From: Nitrospira lenta
GTDB taxonomy: Bacteria; Nitrospirota; Nitrospiria; Nitrospirales; Nitrospiraceae
Direction: 5' to 3'
Assembly (NCBI RefSeq): GCF_900403705.1
Contig: NZ_OUNR01000016.1
Coordinates: 248,001-312,000, forward strand
DNA length: 64,000 nt
This document shows, one piece after another, positions 15,880 to 26,571 of this stretch (position 1 is the first letter of the stretch; every line of letters starts with the position of its first letter). Below the pieces are notes generated by a model, which was not told where the DNA came from, did no database searches, and saw nothing but the letters and a program-made list of their open reading frames with translations. The translations under genes were made by a program, and so were the position numbers.

Positions 15880-15907
15880 TTGACTTGCCCGATCCTCGAC
15901 CTATCTC
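15880..15907 (+). promoter_or_regulatory. Candidate promoter for lon
   Basis: TTGACT (15880-15885), a 16-base spacer and TATCTC (15902-15907) lie about 60 bp upstream of the lon ATG. The match is moderate. It supports the ATG at 15969, because an upstream in-frame start at 15885 would overlap the promoter. Confidence 0.35.
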
Positions 15908-15968
15908 TGTGTGCAGACGCTCACCCATTGTGTCTCTGCTCAGGGATGAGAGAGAGAAAGGACTCAAT

Positions 15969-18365
15969 ATGGATAGCGAGACCAAAGTGTTGACCCTTCC
16001 CGTATTACCTATCAAGCGAACGGTCTTATTCCCCGGCGTCATGATGCCCCTCACCGTCGGTCGCGCCCGATCGATGGCGGCGGTGCAAGCCGCGATGAAG
16101 ACAGAAGAGAAGATGATCCTGGTCGTGGCTCAGCGCGACTCGCAGACTGAAGAACCGGGCCTCAACGACCTGTACACCATCGGCACCAAGGCGATCATCA
16201 AGCAGATCGGCCAATCCTCGGAAGGCGCGATTCATGCGTTTGTCCAGGGCGTCGACCGCGTGGCGGTCATCGAAGAAACTCAATCGGCGCCCTATGCCAT
16301 CGCGCGGGTCCGGTCGCTGGACCGCCCGTCAGAAACCGGCACGGAAGTGCAGGCCATGCATCGGGCGATTCAAGAACTCGTGCGGGAACTCCCGCGCGTG
16401 ATCCAAGCCCCTGGCATGCAAGAGGCCAGCGAGGCGTTGAGCCATGAAGATGACCCGGTGGCCTTGGCCTATCGCGTGGCCTCCCTGGTCAACCTCAGTG
16501 TGGCGGAAGAGCAAAAACTGCTCGAAAGCACCGCGACACTGGATCTATTGCGCGCACTGTACGTGGCCTTATCCAAAGAGATTCAGATCTTACAGCTCCG
16601 TGACAAAATCACGAGCGATGCGCAAGCCAAGATCGGCAAGAGCCAGCGCGAATACATGTTGCGTGAGCAATTGAAAACGATCCAGCAAGAGCTGGGCGAA
16701 AACGACGATGATGACAACGAGATCGCCCATCTGAAGAAGCAAGTGGCCGAGGCGGATTTGCCCGACCATGTGCGGAAGGAAGCGGAGCGCGAGCTCAAGC
16801 GGCTGGCCAAAGTGCCGCCGTCATCGGCCGATCACCAGGTGCTCCGCACCTATCTGGAATTGGTGCTCGAACTGCCCTGGAAGAAAGCCTCGGCGGATGC
16901 AATTGATCTGGCAACCGTCCGGCAGGTGCTCGAAGAGGATCACTACGGCATCACGGAAGTGAAAGAGCGGATCGTGGAGCATCTTGCCGTCTTGAAACTG
17001 AATCCATCGGCCAAGGCGCCGATCCTCTGCTTAGTCGGCCCTCCGGGTGTCGGCAAGACGAGCTTGGGCCAATCCATCGCCAGGGCCATGGGCCGGACGT
17101 TCGAACGGCTCAGCCTGGGCGGCGTGCATGATGAAGCCGAACTGCGCGGCCACCGCCGCACCTATGTCGGCGCGTTGCCGGGCCACATTATTCAAGCCGT
17201 CCGGCGGGCCGGGGTGAATAATCCGGTGCTCATGCTCGATGAAGTCGACAAGATGGGGCGCGACTTCCGCGGAGACCCGGCTGCTGCGCTCTTAGAAATC
17301 CTGGATCCGGCGCAGAACCACACGTTCCGCGACCACTATCTGGATCTCCCCTTCGATTTGTCGAAGGCGTTTTTCATCACGACGGCGAATACGCTGGACA
17401 CGATCAGCCAACCCTTGTTGGACCGGATGGAGATCATCCGCCTGCAAGGCTACAGCGAACATGAGAAAGCGGAAATCGCCCGGCGCTATCTCTGGCCGCG
17501 ACGGTTGAAGGAAGCGGGCTTGAATGCCGAGCAGGCGTTGCTGTCGGACGAGGTGTTGAATCTCGTGATCGGCCGGTACACGCGCGAAGCCGGTGTACGC
17601 CAGCTGGAGCAGATGCTCGGACGGTTGACGAGAAAAGTATCCTTGGCCTTTGCGGAACTCCCAGAGGGCCAAGAGCGTCAGCCGGTCACCATTCGCCAGG
17701 ACATGCTGGATGAATGGCTCGGCTCGGAACGGTTCATGCCGGAAGAGGCGAGAAAGAATCTGCCTCCCGGTGTGGCGACGGGATTAGCCTGGACACCGGC
17801 GGGAGGCGATGTCCTGTATATCGAAACCACGCTGTTGCCCGGCAGTCATGAACTGACGCTGACGGGACAGTTGGGCGACGTGATGCAGGAATCCGCCAGA
17901 GCGGCGCGGAGCTACCTCTGGTCGCATGCCGAAAGCATGGGGCTGGATATCTCCAAGTTCAAGCGGAACGGCGTGCACATCCATGTGCCGTCCGGAGCGA
18001 TTCCGAAAGACGGCCCGTCAGCCGGCATCACGATGGCCACGGCGCTTGCCTCGTCCTACGTGGGCAAAGCCGTCCGCAGCGACACGGCCATGACGGGAGA
18101 GATCAGCTTGAGCGGATTGGTGCTGCCGGTCGGCGGCATCAAGGAGAAGGTGCTGGCGGCCCATCGAGCGGGCATTAGGCGGATCATTCTGCCGAAGGCC
18201 AACGAGAAGGATCTGAAAGAAGTGCCGCAGGAAGTGCGCGACCAGCTCACGTTCATTCCGGTGGAACGGATCGAAGAAGTTCTGCCGGCGGCCTTCAATC
18301 AGGACATCCCTGCAGCCCCACCGGCTGAACGGGATGAGCCACTCGCCACCTCGACCGTCTCGTAA
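15969..18365 (+). CDS. lon: Lon ATP-dependent serine protease
   Basis: The 798-residue product has the complete Lon architecture: the N-terminal LAN substrate domain (LTLPVLPIKRTVLFPGVMMPL) and a coiled linker. The AAA+ module has Walker A GPPGVGKT at 357-364 and Walker B LMLDEVDK. The protease domain has catalytic Ser684 in PKDGPSAGITMA and Lys727 in GGIKEKV. Lon degrades misfolded and regulatory proteins in the cytoplasm. The start is ATG 15969 with GAGAGAAAGGA upstream. A strong hairpin follows the stop. The last ~130 bases of this gene recur twice downstream in degenerate form (19291-19372 and 21203-21339). Confidence 0.96.
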   Translation: MDSETKVLTLPVLPIKRTVLFPGVMMPLTVGRARSMAAVQAAMKTEEKMILVVAQRDSQTEEPGLNDLYTIGTKAIIKQIGQSSEGAIHAFVQGVDRVAVIEETQSAPYAIARVRSLDRPSETGTEVQAMHRAIQELVRELPRVIQAPGMQEASEALSHEDDPVALAYRVASLVNLSVAEEQKLLESTATLDLLRALYVALSKEIQILQLRDKITSDAQAKIGKSQREYMLREQLKTIQQELGENDDDDNEIAHLKKQVAEADLPDHVRKEAERELKRLAKVPPSSADHQVLRTYLELVLELPWKKASADAIDLATVRQVLEEDHYGITEVKERIVEHLAVLKLNPSAKAPILCLVGPPGVGKTSLGQSIARAMGRTFERLSLGGVHDEAELRGHRRTYVGALPGHIIQAVRRAGVNNPVLMLDEVDKMGRDFRGDPAAALLEILDPAQNHTFRDHYLDLPFDLSKAFFITTANTLDTISQPLLDRMEIIRLQGYSEHEKAEIARRYLWPRRLKEAGLNAEQALLSDEVLNLVIGRYTREAGVRQLEQMLGRLTRKVSLAFAELPEGQERQPVTIRQDMLDEWLGSERFMPEEARKNLPPGVATGLAWTPAGGDVLYIETTLLPGSHELTLTGQLGDVMQESARAARSYLWSHAESMGLDISKFKRNGVHIHVPSGAIPKDGPSAGITMATALASSYVGKAVRSDTAMTGEISLSGLVLPVGGIKEKVLAAHRAGIRRIILPKANEKDLKEVPQEVRDQLTFIPVERIEEVLPAAFNQDIPAAPPAERDEPLATSTVS

Positions 18366-18371
18366 CTGCAA

Positions 18372-18397
18372 GAGGCCCCGGGGAGACCCGGGGCCTC
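18372..18397 (+). terminator. Transcription terminator hairpin after lon
   Basis: An 11-bp perfect stem GAGGCCCCGGG/CCCGGGGCCTC with loop GAGA begins 7 bases after the lon stop. The following bases (CATTGTTG) are only mildly T-rich. It is probably the lon terminator. A degenerate version is still recognisable in the lon-tail copy at 19291-19372. Confidence 0.65.
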
Positions 18398-18475
18398 CAT
18401 TGTTGCATCAGCACCAGATCAGACATCCCCAGAGGAGCAGTCAATTAACCACGCGTATTCCCGTATGTCATGCCC

Positions 18476-19012
18476 CTACACATCCGAAAGACCTAGTACC
18501 GCTTTCCACTGCTCCACATAGGTCCAGTCAATATGCAGATCGGCCTCTCGCATATAGATTTTCTCCAAATCAGCGCGATCCTGTAACCGACCTGCCAGAG
18601 TTTTTAAGACAATCAGATCCTCAATGGCCAGAACCGGGACCGGGAGCGATCCAAAGATCACCGTGCGTGTACGTCCCAATGCCGTCCTCAGATACTCAGA
18701 ATCCGCCAACAACAAATCGACAAGAATTTCTTGATCACGGCGAATGCCCACGATTCGCCAAATCGAGAGATTCCGAAGCACCATCGGTGCGGGATAGATC
18801 ACCGTGGAATCAAACAACGGCGATACAAGAGACTGCAGCGTATCCCGGGACGGCTGATCGAGCAGAATGAGGAGATCGATGTCCGTCGTAGCCCGAGGCT
18901 CAACCAATGCGCTGTACGCCCAGCCTCCCGCGAGAGCATAGGGCACACCACGACGATTGAACTCGGCGATGAGGTCGGAAAGGGCTTGAATTAGGATCGG
19001 CCCTGCCGCCAT
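18476..19012 (-). CDS. Nucleotidyltransferase-fold protein (AbiEii/MNT-like), likely toxin-module component
   Basis: The 178-residue protein carries the minimal nucleotidyltransferase signature: GGWAYSALVEPRATTDIDLLI around residues 29-49 (GG, then DxD), with further acidic residues in EILVDLLLADSEYL that could complete the active site. A helical C-terminus follows (IEDLIVLKTLAGRLQDRADLEKI), as in AbiEii/MenT-like and other stand-alone NTases. These transfer nucleotides to tRNA or proteins, and many act as toxins or antitoxins. Its start lies inside the 3' end of the small upstream gene (22-bp overlap), so the pair is co-translated. It sits between lon and a lon-tail repeat, in a mobile-looking region. 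Confidence 0.75.
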   Translation of the reverse strand: MAAGPILIQALSDLIAEFNRRGVPYALAGGWAYSALVEPRATTDIDLLILLDQPSRDTLQSLVSPLFDSTVIYPAPMVLRNLSIWRIVGIRRDQEILVDLLLADSEYLRTALGRTRTVIFGSLPVPVLAIEDLIVLKTLAGRLQDRADLEKIYMREADLHIDWTYVEQWKAVLGLSDV

Positions 19013-19194
19013 GCCTGCTCTTTAGCCAGTCGGATCTCGTGCATCACCTGCACGATTCCCTGGCCCTGCGGATGGGTTTGCGCAAGCATCGCTTGGCGCA
19101 AGGTTAACCCTAACTCGGTGAGTTCGGTGGTCTTACGCAGATTGTCAGCAATCCGCTCGGCATCGGGATGTGTCGCAACTTGTGGCATCAACAC
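18991..19194 (-). CDS. Small partner of the nucleotidyltransferase (putative antitoxin)
   Basis: This 67-residue charged, helical protein (DAERIADNLRKTTELTELGLTLRQAML...) ends MHEIRLAKEQAWRQGRS. It lies upstream of the nucleotidyltransferase gene and overlaps it by 22 bp. Its size, the overlap and a neighbour with toxin-like fold suggest a toxin-antitoxin pair with this gene first. I recognise no DNA-binding motif and no named family. The start could be ATG 19194 or ATG 19188; no strong ribosome-binding site separates them. Confidence 0.55.
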   Translation of the reverse strand: MLMPQVATHPDAERIADNLRKTTELTELGLTLRQAMLAQTHPQGQGIVQVMHEIRLAKEQAWRQGRS

Positions 19195-19290
19195 GCATCC
19201 ATGAAAGGAAGAAATCTACACGAGAGTCTACTAGACGACTCACAGAGGCGCAAGAAAGAAGACCGGACTACATGATTGAATAAACAACCT

Positions 19291-19372
19291 CACCGGCTGA
19301 ACGAGATGGGCCACTGCCACATCAACCGTCTCGTAACTGCAAGCAACCCCGGCGGAACGCCTGGCCCCCTCC
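19291..19372 (+). repeat. Degenerate copy of the lon 3' end plus terminator (copy 2)
   Basis: This stretch aligns with 18319-18398. It contains CACCGGCTGAACG, GATG, GCCAC, ACCGTCTCGTAACTGCAAG and a decayed version of the GC-rich hairpin. At least one single-base deletion destroys the reading frame. It has the same orientation as lon. With the copy at 21203-21339 it forms a set of direct repeats around accessory genes. Confidence 0.8.
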
Positions 19373-19461
19373 TTCCCCTCGTGCCTTCCAGCTAAAGTCA
19401 AATTCTCTGATGATTGTGCCGCCCTCTTGCCAATGTCCTAATTCTGAGACATACTGCGCCT

Positions 19462-19794
19462 GTGAAGTCGATCACCTTTCACCCGAAAGCCCTGGCATTT
19501 ATCCGTGACCAGTCGCCATTGCTCAAGCGTGAACTAGGTGAAGCACTCCGAGACCTGCAGAAAGGCATCAGCATAGGCCTTCCACTGAGCAGACCAATGC
19601 CTTCTGTCGCATCGGGAGCGCATGAGCTCAGAGTGCGAAGCACGACAACCACGGTTCGAGTATTCTACTTTGTAAAACTGGCTGACACGATTCTGGTGTT
19701 TCACGGATTTCAGAAGAAGACGCAGAAAACACCGGCACACGAAATTGCACTCGGCCAACGGCGTTTACAGGAGATGGTTGATGGCAACGACTAG
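19462..19794 (+). CDS. HigB/Gp49-like toxin (RelE superfamily)
   Basis: From GTG 19462 the 110-residue product matches the phage-derived Gp49/HigB type: KSITFHPKALAFIRDQSP, a helical middle, then HELRVRSTTTTVRVFYFVK and ILVFHGFQKKTQKTPAHEI. The strings FHGFQKK and TP..EI are typical of the family, whose members are ribosome-dependent mRNA interferases. An upstream in-frame ATG at 19414 is possible but less family-like. The toxin gene precedes and overlaps the antitoxin gene by 14 bp, the usual order for higBA. Confidence 0.85.
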   Translation: MKSITFHPKALAFIRDQSPLLKRELGEALRDLQKGISIGLPLSRPMPSVASGAHELRVRSTTTTVRVFYFVKLADTILVFHGFQKKTQKTPAHEIALGQRRLQEMVDGND

Positions 19795-20092
19795 AATCAG
19801 CAAACGAGTGACGGTACGGACAGCCAAAGACCTTGGGCAGGCGCTGGGTTTGTCAGTAGCGGACACGGCCGAAATGGAGTTTCGGTCCGACCTCACCGTC
19901 GCACTGGCTAAGATCATTCAAGCTGGCCAGCTAACCCATGCAGCGATTGCAAAGAGTGCGGGCACATCAAGAACGCGGGTAACGGCGATTGCAAATGGAA
20001 ATACCCACGGAGTCTCGACTGATGTGCTGATTCGAGTCCTTGCAGCGACCGGTCATCGGGCTGAAGTCCGGGTCAAGAAAGCTGCGGCGTAA
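19781..20092 (+). CDS. HigA-like XRE-family antitoxin
   Basis: From ATG 19781, with GGAG upstream inside the toxin gene, the 103-residue protein has a helix-turn-helix in its middle: QLTHAAIAKSAGTSRTRVTAIANGNTHGVSTDVLIRVLAATG. This is the XRE fold of HigA antitoxins, which neutralise HigB and autorepress the operon. The N-terminal part (RTAKDLGQALGLSVADTAEMEFR) is characteristic of the Gp49-associated antitoxin subgroup. It ends 18 bp before the convergent SGNH hydrolase gene. Confidence 0.85.
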   Translation: MATTRISKRVTVRTAKDLGQALGLSVADTAEMEFRSDLTVALAKIIQAGQLTHAAIAKSAGTSRTRVTAIANGNTHGVSTDVLIRVLAATGHRAEVRVKKAAA

Positions 20093-20109
20093 TCAACCCA
20101 CCCCTTCCC

Positions 20110-20853
20110 TCACTCTCCCAGCAATACCTTGAGCTGAGGTTCCATGCCTTCGGCCCAGACTTGATAGCCCTGTTCATTGAGGTGAAGCAGATCCGGCATG
20201 AGGTCTCGCTTGAGTCGTCCGTCACGATCCAGAAACAGGTGGTCGAGATCGAGATAGAATAGGTGCTGACCGTCGGCGAATCCACGGAGACGATCATTGA
20301 TCGATCCGTTCACGCGCCGCAGGGAATCACTCGAAGTTGCACCACGTGGGAAGATGCCGAGCAGGAGAATCTTGGTCGCCGAAAGCTTCGCACGGAGCAA
20401 CGTCACAATCGCTTTTATCCCGGCAACCGTCTCCTCCGGCGGGTCTTCTCTTGTCCCCGAGTTGTTCGTGCCGATCATCACCACCGCCACCTTCGGGTGG
20501 ATGCCGTCAATCTCTCCATGCTGCAATCGCCACAAGACCTGCTCAGTCCGGTCACTGTTGAATCCCAGATTCACCGCCCGGCGATGGGCATAGTAGCGCT
20601 CCCACACCTGCCGCCCCTCGTCGCCCCACCCCTGCGTGATGGAATCGCCGATCATGAGCAGATCGACAGATCCCTGTCGCACGCGTGCCACATTGCGTTC
20701 ATGTTGAGCCATCCACCAGTCGGCAGTCTGTGGAGCGGGAACGACAGCGGGTACTTGTCGATCAGCGGAAAGAATAGTGGCAGCCGGAAAGATGAATGCG
20801 CTGGAGAGGATACAAAGAAGAAGGACGCAGGCGGATCGGACATAGCTCGTCAT
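20110..20853 (-). CDS. Secreted SGNH/GDSL hydrolase
   Basis: From ATG 20853 the product has a signal peptide (SACVLLLCILSSAFIFPAA). The SGNH esterase blocks follow: block I LMIGDSITQGW with the nucleophile Ser, block II Gly in VNLGFNSDRTE, block III VVMIGTNN and block V DLLHLNEQGY with the catalytic Asp/His. This resembles platelet-activating-factor acetylhydrolase-like GDSL esterases acting on acyl or acetyl esters of lipids or polysaccharides. A GTG at 20877 is an alternative start. It lies between the higBA pair and the third lon-tail copy, so it may belong to the island or be native. Confidence 0.85.
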   Translation of the reverse strand: MTSYVRSACVLLLCILSSAFIFPAATILSADRQVPAVVPAPQTADWWMAQHERNVARVRQGSVDLLMIGDSITQGWGDEGRQVWERYYAHRRAVNLGFNSDRTEQVLWRLQHGEIDGIHPKVAVVMIGTNNSGTREDPPEETVAGIKAIVTLLRAKLSATKILLLGIFPRGATSSDSLRRVNGSINDRLRGFADGQHLFYLDLDHLFLDRDGRLKRDLMPDLLHLNEQGYQVWAEGMEPQLKVLLGE

Positions 20854-20916
20854 GAGAGCCAACTGTACCAGATTCACGTTGGCAGGTCAGCAAGCGCTGA
20901 GAATGCAATGCGCCGA

Positions 20917-21135
20917 TCAGTCAGGCTTGGGCCGTTGATAGCGAAGCGAGTAGTGCCCGCATTTCATGCAGACGACTTGGAACGGCGGAAGAGCCGGATC
21001 GTAGGCCTTGTGAATGTAACCAGGCGGCACCGTCGAATCGGGGTAGCCTTGGTTGCGCTGAGAGTCGAGCTCCCTCCCGCACTGGCCATTCGCACAATTC
21101 ACAGTGAGTGACACGATAGGAGCATTTGTAGACAT
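20917..21135 (-). CDS. Small zinc-ribbon-like protein
   Basis: The 72-residue protein has two cysteine pairs, CANGQC at about residues 14-19 and CMKC at about 56-59, followed by GHYS. The spacing suits a zinc ribbon. The middle is Pro/Tyr-rich (STVPPGYIHKAYDPALPPF). No catalytic domain is present. It could be a stand-alone zinc-binding protein of the island. It ends about 60 bp before the lon-tail copy at 21203. Reality rests on the cysteine pattern and an otherwise empty stretch. Confidence 0.5.
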   Translation of the reverse strand: MSTNAPIVSLTVNCANGQCGRELDSQRNQGYPDSTVPPGYIHKAYDPALPPFQVVCMKCGHYSLRYQRPKPD

Positions 21136-21202
21136 GACCGCACCATAGCAGGGTCATCGGGCCAAATGTAAGGGGTGCCGGTTTCCAAGGATGTCAGAAG
21201 GC

Positions 21203-21339
21203 CAGAGTGCGCGACGAACTCACCGTCATTCCAGTGGAACGGATCGAAGAAATCCTGCCGGCGGCCTTCAATCAGGACATTCCCACAGCACCATCGGCGG
21301 AACCGAATGAACCGTTAGCGACCTCGACAGCCTCGTAAT
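21203..21339 (+). repeat. Degenerate copy of the lon 3' end (copy 3)
   Basis: About 135 bases align with the end of lon from the codons for VRDQLTFIPVERIEE to the stop. The copy would encode VRDELTVIPVERIEEILPAAF and so on to a TAA stop. It keeps the frame and most differences are conservative, as if it came from the lon gene of a related strain and not from decay of this one. It has the same orientation as lon. The Hachiman genes start about 220 bp downstream. Confidence 0.88.
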
Positions 21340-21558
21340 CTTACTAGGGCCTAGCGAAGATTCGTGGCAATCACACTCCACGGCTGTTCTTTATTAACAA
21401 AATAAGATGGAATAATCCAAATTCCCCCTCTTATGTACACGTGATTAATCCTAGAATTAAGCGTATTCTTCGACGCTATAAATTAGCAGGAACACTAGTT
21501 TATCTTGAGTCTTCACCCAAGAACACAGGATAGACGGTCACGTTTCGTGAATAGATGT

Positions 21559-22503
21559 ATGACTACTGACACAAAAGCATCTCCCCTCTTCGATCTCGAC
21601 AAATATCTTTCAGCAGCCCGAGACAAATATGACAAGTGCCTTGATGTGGTTGAACACAAGGAAATCATTAGTGGCATTAACGTCACCACAAGGCTTCATC
21701 ATCTTAAATTTAATGGAAACTGTCAGCCCGCCATTGATGTCCTAACAGGCTACCTCTATGGACGGATCATCGACTATTGCCTTGCCATGAAGAATCGCCC
21801 TGCACTCATGACTTCTGAAGAAGCGGCCATGTTTACGAAGGAGGCTAAACGGCTTTTCATAAATCCTACCCCAAAGCCGGATGATCCAGACAAGACAGGA
21901 GAAGCAGGCGAGATCCTATTATATTTCCTGTTGGAGACAGTGCTCGGCGCTCCACAAATCGTCGCCAAGATGGATCTCAAGACAAATCCGAAGTTGGAGA
22001 GCCACGGTTCTGACGGAATTCATATGAAGTGGAATGAGCCTGAAAGTATGGTTGACCTTTATTTTGGAGAATCTAAACTATACCAAGATGTTGGCCAAGC
22101 CATGACTGCTGCATTAGCCAGCATTAGAGATTTCCACGATAAAGACATATTCCAACACGAGTGCAAGATGGTCACCAAGCATTTCAAGTATGCACAACCG
22201 CAAATTCAGCATGCGGTTGCGGAACTCTTTGATTCAGGGAAGCCGGGAATTGGAGTAAGAGTCAATCACGCGTGCCTAATTGGATACAATTGGGCTGAGT
22301 ACGGGAAGTTGCCTTCCTTGGCTCAGCAAAAACTCACCGAGGATTTCCGCGCTCGCTATCTTGCTGACGCACCAAGATTGCACCAGCTGCTACAGACGCG
22401 CTTTGATACTTGGTCCAAAAAAAACCTCCGATTCGAAGTTTTCTTTCTTCCATTTCCAACGGTTCAGAATTTTCGAGATGCATTCAATAAGGAACTAACG
22501 TGA
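21559..22503 (+). CDS. hamA: Hachiman anti-phage protein HamA (DUF1837 nuclease)
   Basis: From ATG 21559 the 314-residue product matches DUF1837/HamA. It has GEAGEILLYFLLE (114-126), an LKTN strand, HGSDGIH (149-155) and FGESKLY (169-175). The conserved D and ExK residues form the PD-(D/E)xK-like nuclease site. HamA is the nuclease half of the two-gene Hachiman system; HamB restrains it until DNA damage or phage replication is sensed. In-frame GTG 21547 and TTG 21505 are alternative starts, and none has a strong ribosome site. Base composition is visibly A+T-richer than in flanking genes, indicating horizontal acquisition. hamB follows after 29 bp. Confidence 0.88.
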   Translation: MTTDTKASPLFDLDKYLSAARDKYDKCLDVVEHKEIISGINVTTRLHHLKFNGNCQPAIDVLTGYLYGRIIDYCLAMKNRPALMTSEEAAMFTKEAKRLFINPTPKPDDPDKTGEAGEILLYFLLETVLGAPQIVAKMDLKTNPKLESHGSDGIHMKWNEPESMVDLYFGESKLYQDVGQAMTAALASIRDFHDKDIFQHECKMVTKHFKYAQPQIQHAVAELFDSGKPGIGVRVNHACLIGYNWAEYGKLPSLAQQKLTEDFRARYLADAPRLHQLLQTRFDTWSKKNLRFEVFFLPFPTVQNFRDAFNKELT

Positions 22504-22532
22504 CGACTTCATAGATTAATTTTACACAAAAC

Positions 22533-25082
22533 ATGCCAATTGAAGAACAAACATCTTTTACTGCTAACTTTCGCAAGCTTCTCCTAGCTGACCTTTCCCT
22601 TCAACTGCCTGGCAGCCCACTTAGCTCAAGTGATGGCTATGTTCTTACTGAGCATGAGGTCTTTGCACTTCTCAGCCACGCATCAATACTAGCTATATCC
22701 TCAGCAGCAGAAGATCGTGCCTTGGCCTATGAAACAACAACACGGCTGATTGAAACCTTACAAAATAGTATACCGGCCGTAATCGCGTGCACAGATATAG
22801 TCTTGTCCCGCCTAGGGAATTTCCCAGGAAGAAAACTACTTCGAACAAGATATACATCCACACCCGAGAACCCTCCCCACGTCCCCGTTCTTCTCGCGTT
22901 AGAACGAGCTGCCCGAGAAATTGAAAATTCCGTCTTTGCACCAGACGGCAGTGGAGTAGCACTCACAGACTTCCAGTTTGACCTATTCTCCTCTCTAGAC
23001 AACTCAGGAACAGTCAGTGTTTCAGCCCCAACTTCAGCAGGAAAGAGCTTTGTTCTCGGCTTAGACCTTGTCCGAAGATTACGAAAAGGAGATCGCGCGA
23101 ATATCGTATATCTCGTCCCCACCCGCGCTCTAATTCGTGAGGTCACGCTTAAAACTCGGGTTCTACTTAGGCAAGCTGGGCTTGAGATGGTTCCTGTTCG
23201 AACTGTGCCATTTCCCGTTGACCAAGAAAAGGCACCGCATGGAGCAGTGTATGTACTCACACAAGAACGACTGGTGAGCCTACTGCATTCCTCACGTGGA
23301 AAAGCTTGGATCACAAGAATCCTAGTAGACGAGGCCCAAGGGATTCAGGACGATGCACGAGGCATTATTCTGCAAAGCGCGGTAGAAATGGTGATACGGC
23401 AATTCCCGACTGCTGAGGTACATTTTGCCAGTCCGTTGGTTAAAAACCCCAGTTATCTACTCTCCCTATTTGGCAGGAATGAGGGAGGGCGGTCGATCTC
23501 AGAAACTGTGTCACCCGTATCTCAGAATATAATCCTGGTTTCTGAGGTCCACAGGAAACCCACACAGGCCAATTTTGAGTTATTAGCAGATCATGACCGA
23601 ATCGCACTTGGCGTTCGCGATCTCGGCTTCTCTTTCAGAGGAACCATACATAAGCGGCGATCGAAATTTGCACAAGCCATCACAAGGGCTGACGAAGCTA
23701 CCTTAATCTATGCTGATAACCCTTCTGGCACTGAGGAAGTCGCCCTAGCACTAATCGAAGGGCTCGGAGAACCTCATGATGTTGATCAAGAGATCCAGCA
23801 ACTTATTGAATTCATTCGAGTCGAAGTCCACCCGGATTATCCTCTGGTAAAAACACTTCCGCATGCAGTCGCTTTTCACTATGGCTTCATGCCATCGATT
23901 GTACGTGCACAAATTGAAGAGCTATTCAGACGCGGGAAAATAAGGATAGTCTGTTGCACCAGCACGCTCCTGCAAGGTGTGAATCTGCCAGCTAGGCACA
24001 TAGTGATTGAGAATCCCCATCGTGGACAGGGCAAACCAATGACACGGCAAGCTTTCCTAAACCTGGCAGGCCGTGCGGGAAGGCTAGTTTCAGAATTTCA
24101 TGGAAACATTTGGTGTCTTACACCAGCCAAGTGGGACGTGCCTTCATACCAGGGAGATAAGCTCCAAGATATTGCATCTTCCATGAATGAAGTGATGAGC
24201 GATGGGGGAACTGCCATCCAACGCCTCCTCGCAGGACAAGCAGATCCGGATGAAATTGATTTAGCCGAAGCAGCTTTAGGAAAGCTCTACTGCGATTTCA
24301 CAATGGCAGGAAAAAGCCTTGCTCAGTCAGAATACAAAACGCAGGACAATCAAGCCATGCTTTCGGAGACTGACCGACGATGCGCTGCAATTGTTGTGAC
24401 AATCCCTCGTGAAATCATAGACGCCAATCGTTCCGTGCGACCCGACCGACTGCAGGCGCTGTACTTGCACATGAAGTCTCAGCCTGACCCTACTGTACTA
24501 CTTCCATTGAAACCAGGCGCTTCAGGTTCGAATCAGCGCATGGAAGAAATCATCCTGCAAACCCAGAAATATTTAGAAGGAACTGATACTGAGAGCAATG
24601 CCAGCTATAAATTCTACAAGATGCTTGCCACTCGCTGGATCTACAATATGCCTCTCGGCCAAATTATTAGGGAGCACCTTGCACACCTCCGCAAAAAAGG
24701 GGACTCGCGCTCGAGTTCAGTAATAATTCGAGACCTTCTCAAAACATTGGAAAGGTATATCCGTTTTCGACTTGTAAAACATTACATGGCTTACACCAGC
24801 CTGCTAGCTCTGGTCCTGAATGAGGCAGGGCAGACGGAGCAGGCCAAAGCGGTTGAGCCTTTCCACGTTTACCTAGAATGCGGTGCTTCAGATAGATCAG
24901 CACTTAATCTTATCGCACTAGGACTTTCCCGAGCGACAGCACTCGCCTTGTCCAGTGCAATTAATCTTCCAGAAGAAGCGTCCCCTGAAGACTATCTCAA
25001 TCAGTTGAATAACTTCGATCTTGAACAGACAGGAATTCCAGGATTGTGCATTCGCGAAGTCAGAGAGCTTCTTGGCATATAG
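22533..25082 (+). CDS. hamB: Hachiman anti-phage helicase HamB
   Basis: The 849-residue protein is a superfamily 2 helicase. Walker A is in SAPTSAGKS (164-172), motif Ia LVPTRALIREV, Walker B VDEAQG (265-270, a DEAQ box). In the second RecA domain, CCTSTLLQGVNLP and NLAGRAGR are motifs V and VI. This fits HamB, which binds DNA ends or gaps and releases HamA nuclease activity. The long C-terminal region after about residue 560 is helical, as expected. Codon use is A+T-rich like hamA. The operon contains no further gene, matching the canonical hamAB layout. Confidence 0.88.
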   Translation: MPIEEQTSFTANFRKLLLADLSLQLPGSPLSSSDGYVLTEHEVFALLSHASILAISSAAEDRALAYETTTRLIETLQNSIPAVIACTDIVLSRLGNFPGRKLLRTRYTSTPENPPHVPVLLALERAAREIENSVFAPDGSGVALTDFQFDLFSSLDNSGTVSVSAPTSAGKSFVLGLDLVRRLRKGDRANIVYLVPTRALIREVTLKTRVLLRQAGLEMVPVRTVPFPVDQEKAPHGAVYVLTQERLVSLLHSSRGKAWITRILVDEAQGIQDDARGIILQSAVEMVIRQFPTAEVHFASPLVKNPSYLLSLFGRNEGGRSISETVSPVSQNIILVSEVHRKPTQANFELLADHDRIALGVRDLGFSFRGTIHKRRSKFAQAITRADEATLIYADNPSGTEEVALALIEGLGEPHDVDQEIQQLIEFIRVEVHPDYPLVKTLPHAVAFHYGFMPSIVRAQIEELFRRGKIRIVCCTSTLLQGVNLPARHIVIENPHRGQGKPMTRQAFLNLAGRAGRLVSEFHGNIWCLTPAKWDVPSYQGDKLQDIASSMNEVMSDGGTAIQRLLAGQADPDEIDLAEAALGKLYCDFTMAGKSLAQSEYKTQDNQAMLSETDRRCAAIVVTIPREIIDANRSVRPDRLQALYLHMKSQPDPTVLLPLKPGASGSNQRMEEIILQTQKYLEGTDTESNASYKFYKMLATRWIYNMPLGQIIREHLAHLRKKGDSRSSSVIIRDLLKTLERYIRFRLVKHYMAYTSLLALVLNEAGQTEQAKAVEPFHVYLECGASDRSALNLIALGLSRATALALSSAINLPEEASPEDYLNQLNNFDLEQTGIPGLCIREVRELLGI

Positions 25083-25163
25083 ATCCAGAGAGATAAAAGG
25101 TCTCGGAACCATTTCATTGCGCTGGACGAACCCAAGGAAGAAACCGGATCGCGGGCACAACCC

Positions 25164-25786
25164 ATGACCGACAAGTACAATCTTCACCGCTTTCTCGACG
25201 CGCAAGAGCGCGTCTATGACACAGTCCTTCATGAACTTCGAGCCGGGAGAAAGTCGAGTCACTGGATCTGGTTTATCTTTCCTCAGATCGCAGGACTTGG
25301 TCACAGTGGAATGGCGCAGAAATTCGCCATTGACTCCCTCGACGAGGCCAAGGCCTATCTGCAACACCCTGTCCGGGCCCGCAATATTCACGAAAACTTC
25401 TACTGCAACCGCCGATACACCGCTACGACAAGCCTAACGGCGGGCGGACTCGCCGCTCAGTCAGTCGACATACTGTTTCAAGTATGCCTCCCTTCTTCGC
25501 AGCTCCGCGCGCCCGTCTCGCATGGTGTCTTGGCGGTTTCGTCACGAACTCTCGTGAATACTGCGGGCTGGGTCCCAGGCTCAGAGCATGTACGCAGCTT
25601 GTTCTCAACGTGGAAGGGCGCAGCGCTGAAGAGATCTTCTCCTACCCGGACAATCTTAAATTCCGCTCCTGCATGACCTTGTTCATGACCGCGACCACCG
25701 ACAACACAATCTTCAAAGATGCTCTTCTTAAATACTTCGACAGCAAGCCTGACACCTTGACCCTCGACCTCCTGGCACATCGATAG
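25164..25786 (+). pseudogene. DUF1810 family gene interrupted by an insertion
   Basis: The first part (25164-25376) encodes YNLHRFLDAQERVYDTVLHEL, SSHWIWFIFPQ and AKAYLQHPV, the start of a DUF1810 protein. The rest resumes in a different frame from about 25568 with LGPRLRACTQLVLNVEGRS, then KFRSCMTLFM and the normal DUF1810 end at 25786. Family members read from HPV almost directly into LGPRL, so about 190 bp were inserted between them and the gene is split. The function of DUF1810 proteins is unknown. The gene begins 82 bp after hamB. Confidence 0.85.
25377..25568. mobile_element. MITE-like insertion with terminal inverted repeats
   Basis: The insert in the DUF1810 gene begins GCCCGCAATATTCACGAAA and ends with the near-reverse complement: 17 of the first 19 bases match the inverted right end. 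The element is about 192 bp and encodes no transposase, so it is a candidate miniature inverted-repeat element mobilised in trans. The exact edges and target duplication are not clear; one to three bases on either side are ambiguous. Confidence 0.65.
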
Positions 25787-25877
25787 CTTTCGTCCTCCTC
25801 TCCCAAGTGCGGCGTAGACGACACCCCGTCTGCGACTTGCACGAAGGCGCTTGACCTCCTAACCCTTTTCTCACTAA

Positions 25878-26048
25878 GGGGCTGGGGCTCAATGCGAACG
25901 TCGCCGGAGGAGCGGGGCCCCATCGAGGGTCCGCTAAGAAGGGAAACGGAAACTGACCGAGTCTGCGAGGGAATTTCCGAAGGCTGCCGCTTAGCGGAGC
26001 CCGCATGGGTCGCTCCGGGAGGTGCGAGAGCAGTTGAGCCCCAGCCCC
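25878..26048. repeat. Non-coding element with 15-bp perfect terminal inverted repeats
   Basis: GGGGCTGGGGCTCAA at 25878-25892 is repeated as its exact reverse complement at 26034-26048. The 141 bp between contain no convincing gene. Just before the left repeat (about 25809-25850) lies another imperfect hairpin, GTAGACG...CGTCTGC within AAGTGCGGC...GACTTGC, which may terminate transcription from the hamAB/DUF1810 direction. The whole gap from 25787 to 26151 seems to consist of such elements and has no protein-coding signal. It could be a second MITE-like repeat or a structured RNA. Confidence 0.55.
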
Positions 26049-26151
26049 ACATCCACTTTCCTTGCCCTTCCGTATTGGCTTATGCAAGGATGAGTTTCGT
26101 TATTCCACTGACCATCACATTCCCCCTCTGAAGCGATAAAGGAGATGCCCT

Positions 26152-26571
26152 ATGCCTCCCAAGATTGAGATCCCCGCGATTGTCAAAGTGGCGAAAGCCG
26201 ACGAAGAATGGAAGAAGCAGCTGTCGGCTGCGGCCTATCAGGTGTTGCGCCACGAAGATACGGAACGGGCGTTTACGAGTCCGCTGCATGAGAATCACGC
26301 CTCTGGCATCTATTACTGCGCGGGTTGCGATCTCCCCGCCTATTCGTCGGAACAGAAGTTCGACAGCGGCACCGGCTGGCCCAGCTTCTGGCAGCCGATC
26401 GACCCGAAGGTGGTGGAGACGCGCACCGACTCGAAGTTCTTCATGACCCGCACCGAAGTGCACTGTGCCCGCTGCGGCGGCCACCAGGGCCATCTCTTCG
26501 ATGACGGTCCGAAGCCGACCGGACTCCGTTACTGCATCAACGGCGTCTCGCTGAAATTTGTCGCAGGGTAA
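26152..26571 (+). CDS. msrB: Peptide-methionine (R)-S-oxide reductase MsrB
   Basis: The 139-residue protein carries the MsrB fold: zinc CxxC pairs (YYCAGCDLPAYSS and VHCARCGGHQGH), the substrate motif GTGWPSFWQPI and the catalytic cysteine in RYCINGVSLKF. It reduces methionine-R-sulfoxide in proteins using thioredoxin. There is no signal peptide, so it acts in the cytoplasm. AAAGGAG precedes ATG 26152. It is a single gene without an MsrA neighbour and is followed by a 10-bp hairpin. Confidence 0.95.
   Translation: MPPKIEIPAIVKVAKADEEWKKQLSAAAYQVLRHEDTERAFTSPLHENHASGIYYCAGCDLPAYSSEQKFDSGTGWPSFWQPIDPKVVETRTDSKFFMTRTEVHCARCGGHQGHLFDDGPKPTGLRYCINGVSLKFVAG

Follow-up and report, generated by a model that had tools for sequence, protein, structure and literature searches.

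The Hachiman genes and their setting

The window analysed here is a stretch of 64,000 nucleotides of the Nitrospira lenta genome, and the two genes at 21559-25082 within it are, judged by sequence, a complete Hachiman pair of ordinary type and so a further member of a known family. Both genes are full length, on the same strand and in the order hamA then hamB, with 29 bp between them, and the start codon assigned to hamA gives an N-terminus that agrees with that of the nearest relative found. The pair and the features that surround it are collected in Table 1.

Table 1. Positions in the window of the Hachiman genes and of the features that border them
Feature	Position	Strand	Remarks
lon 3' end	18233-18365	+	last part of the genome's own lon (15885-18365), the source type for the tail copies; the acquired interval starts after it
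Tail copy 2	19285-19369	+	shorter lon tail; found by repeat and genome-wide search
Tail copy 3	21206-21338	+	duplicate of the lon 3' end, its frame unbroken as far as the lon stop codon; forms the left edge of the cassette
Hachiman cassette	21339-25151		about 3.8 kb, A+T-rich; other cargo in its place in sister species
hamA	21559-22503	+	ATG at 21559, stop codon ending at 22503; 314 aa; predicted HamA/DUF1837 effector nuclease subunit; D152 and E171-x-K173 intact; Pfam PF08878, PADLOC HamA1 PDLC00168
hamB	22533-25082	+	849 aa; predicted sensor subunit, an SF2 helicase of the Ski2-like type with intact Walker A, DEAQ and motif VI; PADLOC, PDB 9wh1_B
DUF1810 gene	25164-25786	+	right cassette edge; split at about codon 70 by an element of about 195 bp (25373-25567)
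msrB	26152-26571	+	closes the whole acquired interval on the right; adjoins lon in G002

Profile searches place both products firmly. HamA matches its Pfam family at 1.7e-46 and 159 bits (cut-off 25) and the PADLOC HamA1 model at 362 bits, and HamB matches the PADLOC models HamB2 (PDLC00199) at 906 bits over residues 4-847 and HamB1 (PDLC00186) at 807 bits, together with Pfam DEAD and Helicase_C; the PADLOC subtypes disagree, HamA being closest to type 1 and HamB to type 2. Among nine aligned HamA proteins residues G114-E115-x-G117-E118, D152, E171 and K173 are invariant, and among nine aligned HamB proteins so are A165-P166-T167..G170-K171 of Walker A, D266-E267-A268 of motif II and G513-R514-A515-G516-R517 of motif VI. 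The order hamA then hamB on one strand recurs in all eight of the homologous loci examined. The original prediction had placed both frames where they are now confirmed, in the canonical order and with that spacing, had read GEAGE, HGSDG and FGESK in the first product and SAPTSAGKS, DEAQ and AGRAGR in the second, and had taken the catalytic motifs to be intact; every one of these motifs is present, and the D-E(X)K residues and the helicase motifs do not vary across nine homologous operons. The profile searches that it proposed, with strong assignments of the first gene to HamA/DUF1837 and of the second to HamB, gave neither of the outcomes it had named as speaking against Hachiman, namely a first gene outside DUF1837 or a helicase of an unrelated repair family.

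In the PDB HamB matches 9wh1_B (8.5e-50) by sequence, and Hel308, PolQ and Ski2-like helicases are matched as well, which lends something to a reading of hamAB as a housekeeping DNA repair module, a Hel308/PolQ-like helicase with its partner, and not as phage defence. However, the NCBIfam models for Hel308-type repair helicases score only 52-73 bits with HamB for cut-offs of about 890-1200, far from the scores of the HamA and HamB models, and the patchy distribution of HamA, the atypical composition of the segment and the other defence systems housed in the same interval (all below) tell against repair too, leaving a repair module very improbable.

The sharp change of base composition relative to the neighbouring genes that had been predicted is equally present. 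From 21339 to 25151 the G+C content is 47.1%, whereas the rest of the 64 kb, taken as 486 overlapping windows of that size, has 57.7% (sd 2.6, minimum 53.1), and GC3 is 0.48 in hamA and 0.43 in hamB as against 0.74-0.76 in lon, msrB and one neighbouring gene.

A scan confined to sigma-70 promoters found none upstream of hamAB better than chance. The lack of a recognisable sigma-70 promoter, the adjacent DUF1810 gene split by a dispersed element and several gene-end fragments close by are what one might meet if hamAB were silent or functionally decayed, a passenger in a scrap-rich hotspot. Set against such decay, both frames are open from end to end and every invariant residue has been retained, and a dead or silent pair is considered improbable.

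Characterised and related Hachiman systems

The HamAB of E. coli ECOR31 (PDB 8VX9, PMC12278908) has the same two-gene order, a HamA with a D-E(X)K motif and a HamB of the SF2 Ski2-like type with matching motifs, and HamB of the window matches 8vx9_B at E = 2e-12 by sequence and at 1.3e-28 by profile. The two systems are nonetheless distant in sequence, the ECOR31 HamB having 1174 aa against 849 aa in the window, and no sequence similarity can be recognised between the solved ECOR31 HamA and the HamA described here. In ECOR31 the D-E(X)K motif of HamA has been described, and the E138A,K140A substitutions abolished defence (PMC12278908); E171 and K173 of the window protein lie within a G-E-x-K motif and are matched to E138 and K140 through that motif rather than through a complete alignment. 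For HamB a closer counterpart is seen in 9WH1, which pairs a HamA C-terminal-domain protein with a HamB-like helicase, and almost the whole of the latter chain aligns with HamB (2.1e-105 by profile). In contrast, the 528-aa HamA-like chain of 9WH1 is matched weakly, over residues 267-523 (8.5e-5), and has no GEAGE, HGSDG or GESK in the alignment. A single-sequence search of the PDB with HamA gave no significant match, and the profile search retrieved only this distant 9wh1_A chain and not the solved ECOR31 HamA; a HamA structure predicted from two sequences had a mean pLDDT of 44 and the model was set aside. The nuclease fold of HamA is accordingly putative.

If the window system acts as the characterised system of ECOR31 does (PMC12278908), the HamB DNA helicase would survey intact double-stranded DNA and keep the HamA nuclease inactive, and during infection HamB would meet damaged or single-stranded-ended DNA, unwind it and free HamA, which would then degrade phage and host DNA alike and so abort the infection. 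The window HamAB is most likely a nuclease-helicase of this kind, sensing DNA damage and destroying cellular DNA when activated. Taken together, the identity as Hachiman and the nuclease-helicase mode of action are held with high confidence, and by analogy the pair would be expressed in Nitrospira lenta, form a complex, sense damage there and protect against phage.

Hachiman is rare around this genome. Its own HamA is present in one copy, and a protein search of 79 genomes of the genus returned one other (G064), which is 28% identical and has its own HamB. Across the phylum seven of 395 genomes have a HamA match, one of the seven falling under the family cut-off, and the window pair is in that sense one more Hachiman in a phylum where few are found. 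The nearest relative found is in a Sulfurovum sp. MAG (JALXBG010000115.1, L093), with HamA 42% and HamB 39% identical; the gene order is that of the window, but its hamA and hamB overlap where those of the window are 29 bp apart, and its neighbour genes are others. This MAG is taken here to belong to the Campylobacterota, that is, to another phylum. Plasmid-borne homologues are all below 35% identity among the matches listed, many of the plasmids being conjugative, and in phage records and viral contigs no HamA was found. Such a pattern of relatives would fit a horizontal acquisition from far away.

The interval between lon and msrB

In the relative G002 msrB comes directly after lon (in L088 the lon tail is matched to 1483 and msrB from 1649), and because the two genes adjoin there the DNA from 18366 to 26151 of the window is acquired. 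This interval contains an AbiEii-like nucleotidyltransferase with a small partner, a RelE/HigA-type pair, an SGNH hydrolase, tail copies 2 and 3, Hachiman and the broken DUF1810 gene; neither integrase nor transposase was seen among its profiled ORFs.

Related species keep other defence genes at the same place. In a survey of selected large ORFs profiled in the relatives, many of which are fragmented assemblies, the lon-msrB interval holds a PD-Lambda-4 protein in G050, a type IIG-like restriction helicase in G022, an OLD-like ATPase with an SRA-HNH protein in G070 and a C5-methyltransferase with an ORC-CDC6-like ATPase in G069, and on the lon side in G068, where the msrB side falls on a different contig, there is a BsuBI/PstI-type (type II) restriction-modification pair. 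With fixed borders, varying defence cargo and an empty site in G002, the lon-msrB interval is a defence hotspot bounded by core genes. The site matters more than the gene pair, being a short and defined interval whose defence systems change from one related species to another.

Fixed core-gene borders with changing defence cargo, often with no recognisable mobile element, are also features of cDHS1 and cDHS2 of P. aeruginosa (PMC10250203) and of integrase-poor hotspots (PMC5635113). The Nitrospira sites differ from these in their borders, lon and msrB here (and atpH with DUF1810 elsewhere, see below), and in having partial copies of border genes inside the interval. No prior description of a Nitrospira Hachiman or of a hotspot at the lon end was found in the part of the literature covered.

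On the minus strand at 18476-19194 lies the 178-aa nucleotidyltransferase, the similarity of which to AbiEii is weak, with a 67-aa ORF upstream; the two are possibly a toxin-antitoxin pair.

Duplicated gene ends and the arrival of the cassette

Hachiman had been noted originally as lying downstream of lon-tail repeats. The repeats are real (the tail copies of the window were recovered in a genome-wide search at E = 3e-34 and 2e-14, and tail 3 matches the genome's own lon at 83%), but they are not tied to Hachiman, and the idea that they came with it as a signature was discarded, since in four sister species a tail at that place is followed by other cargo or by a contig end. Because the sisters have the tail there before other cargo, it is older than, or independent of, Hachiman. 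The tails of the window start at 18233, 19285 and 21206, and at the right end before msrB no lon-tail repeat was found.

The limits of the cassette follow from the same comparison. The window is similar to G050, G022, G067 and G068 up to 21338-21341, at the lon stop codon of tail 3, and beyond that point it differs from them. Similarity returns in G050, G022 and G068 at 25151-25156, which is 8-13 bp short of the DUF1810 start codon; the G067 contig runs out shortly past the tail. Limits that match between the sister alignments therefore define an exchanged cassette of about 21339-25151. On the right, Pfam matches both halves of the DUF1810 gene, and its break was placed by alignment to the intact copy of G050.

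Homologous exchange has been proposed in general for integrase-poor hotspots (PMC5635113; compare PMC10250203), and for the window the corresponding route would be that relatives swap defence cassettes by homologous recombination through shared ends, the duplicated lon 3' end on the left and DUF1810 on the right, with no integrase taking part and with scraps of lon tail and DUF1810 as the scars left by exchange. In favour of this route, sister species match the window as far as the tail stop codon and once more from shortly before DUF1810, and have other cargo in the middle. Tail 3 itself seems to be a mosaic boundary. Just upstream of it the window is 95.7% identical to G050, while the tail is only 80.5% identical to the tail of G050; it is nearer to functional lon genes, those of G068 (86.5%) and also of G038 and G070, and its frame is intact where the G050 tail has an internal stop. 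The simplest reading of these 133 bp would be a recombination breakpoint in or beside tail 3, with the new tail coming from the lon end of a donor. Homologous exchange at shared ends is the favoured route of arrival, with a chance put at about even; it depends on this single 133-bp mosaic boundary, and an integrase since lost, or transduction, could also have brought the cassette in.

Duplicated 3' ends of genes are the usual mark of insertion by an integrative element. The segment may by that token be the remnant of an element for which the lon 3' end served as attachment site, restoring lon and leaving one tail copy at each integration, the integrase having been lost later, a proposal that bears on the route of arrival and not on the identity of the genes. 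The tail copies do begin in most genomes at the lon position equivalent to 18223-18238 of the window and end near the stop codon or the terminator, and both the window and G050 have three lon tails in tandem, as an attachment site would have it. However, among the profiled ORFs of 18366-26151 an integrase is absent, the right ends vary between copies, and tails occur far from lon, beside atpH and mixed with 3' ends of a HEAT-repeat gene and 5' fragments of DUF1810, which one lon-specific integrase cannot explain. An integrative element is judged unlikely, and homologous exchange is preferred to it.

Similar scraps are present at a second hotspot, beside atpH. Elsewhere in Nitrospira the stretch between atpH with its HEAT-repeat gene and DUF1810 contains lon tails, HEAT-gene 3' ends and DUF1810 5' fragments, with defence genes among them: a type IV restriction enzyme in G001, a PDC-S06 protein in G016 and, on the DUF1810 side in G007, where the stretch read does not include the atp genes, Lamassu LmuAB. 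In about ten genomes (L041, L064, L067, L069, L070, L076, L077 and similar ones) a copy of the lon 3' end, at a great distance from lon, starts 11 bp past the point where a higA-type antitoxin gene stops. That such a tail encodes a functional peptide downstream of higA was considered and dropped, most tail copies being frameshifted or having stops. Because lon tails occur far from lon, cassettes would seem to have moved between the lon and atpH sites with DUF1810 as the shared end.

A wider model, put forward tentatively and with less than even chances, is that across the genus defence cassettes circulate between lon-msrB and atpH-DUF1810 with no integrase, the duplicated ends (lon tail, HEAT-gene tail and DUF1810 start) serving as portable homology arms. 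If that were true, the stacked gene-end scraps would be a readable record of earlier swaps of defence systems. The duplicated ends give a concrete hypothesis for cassette exchange that does without mobile elements. The hotspots also point to new candidates. In the slot on the atpH side there are a 1111-aa protein (L077:7554-10889) and a 1014-aa protein (L072:4921-7965, minus strand), with no or a weak PADLOC match, which may belong to defence systems yet to be described; these, like the ORC-CDC6-like protein near lon, are examples of several unassigned products that are candidate defence proteins by position alone.

Several of the DUF1810 scraps are alike. Fragments of its 5' end that stop at the same codon, covering residues 1-45, recur across L063, L065, L067, L070, L074 and L076, and in several genomes a similar ORF of about 422 aa comes next; others end near residue 65, some of them at a copy of the element of about 195 bp that splits DUF1810 in the window. 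That element has the inverted ends GCCCGCAATATTCACGAAAAC ... CTCTCGTGAATACTGCGGGC and looks like a miniature inverted-repeat element (MITE). It is present once in its own genome, with similar copies in 56 of the 79 genomes of the genus, often about ten in each, and in G014 and G004 a copy about 92% identical occupies the same site in DUF1810.
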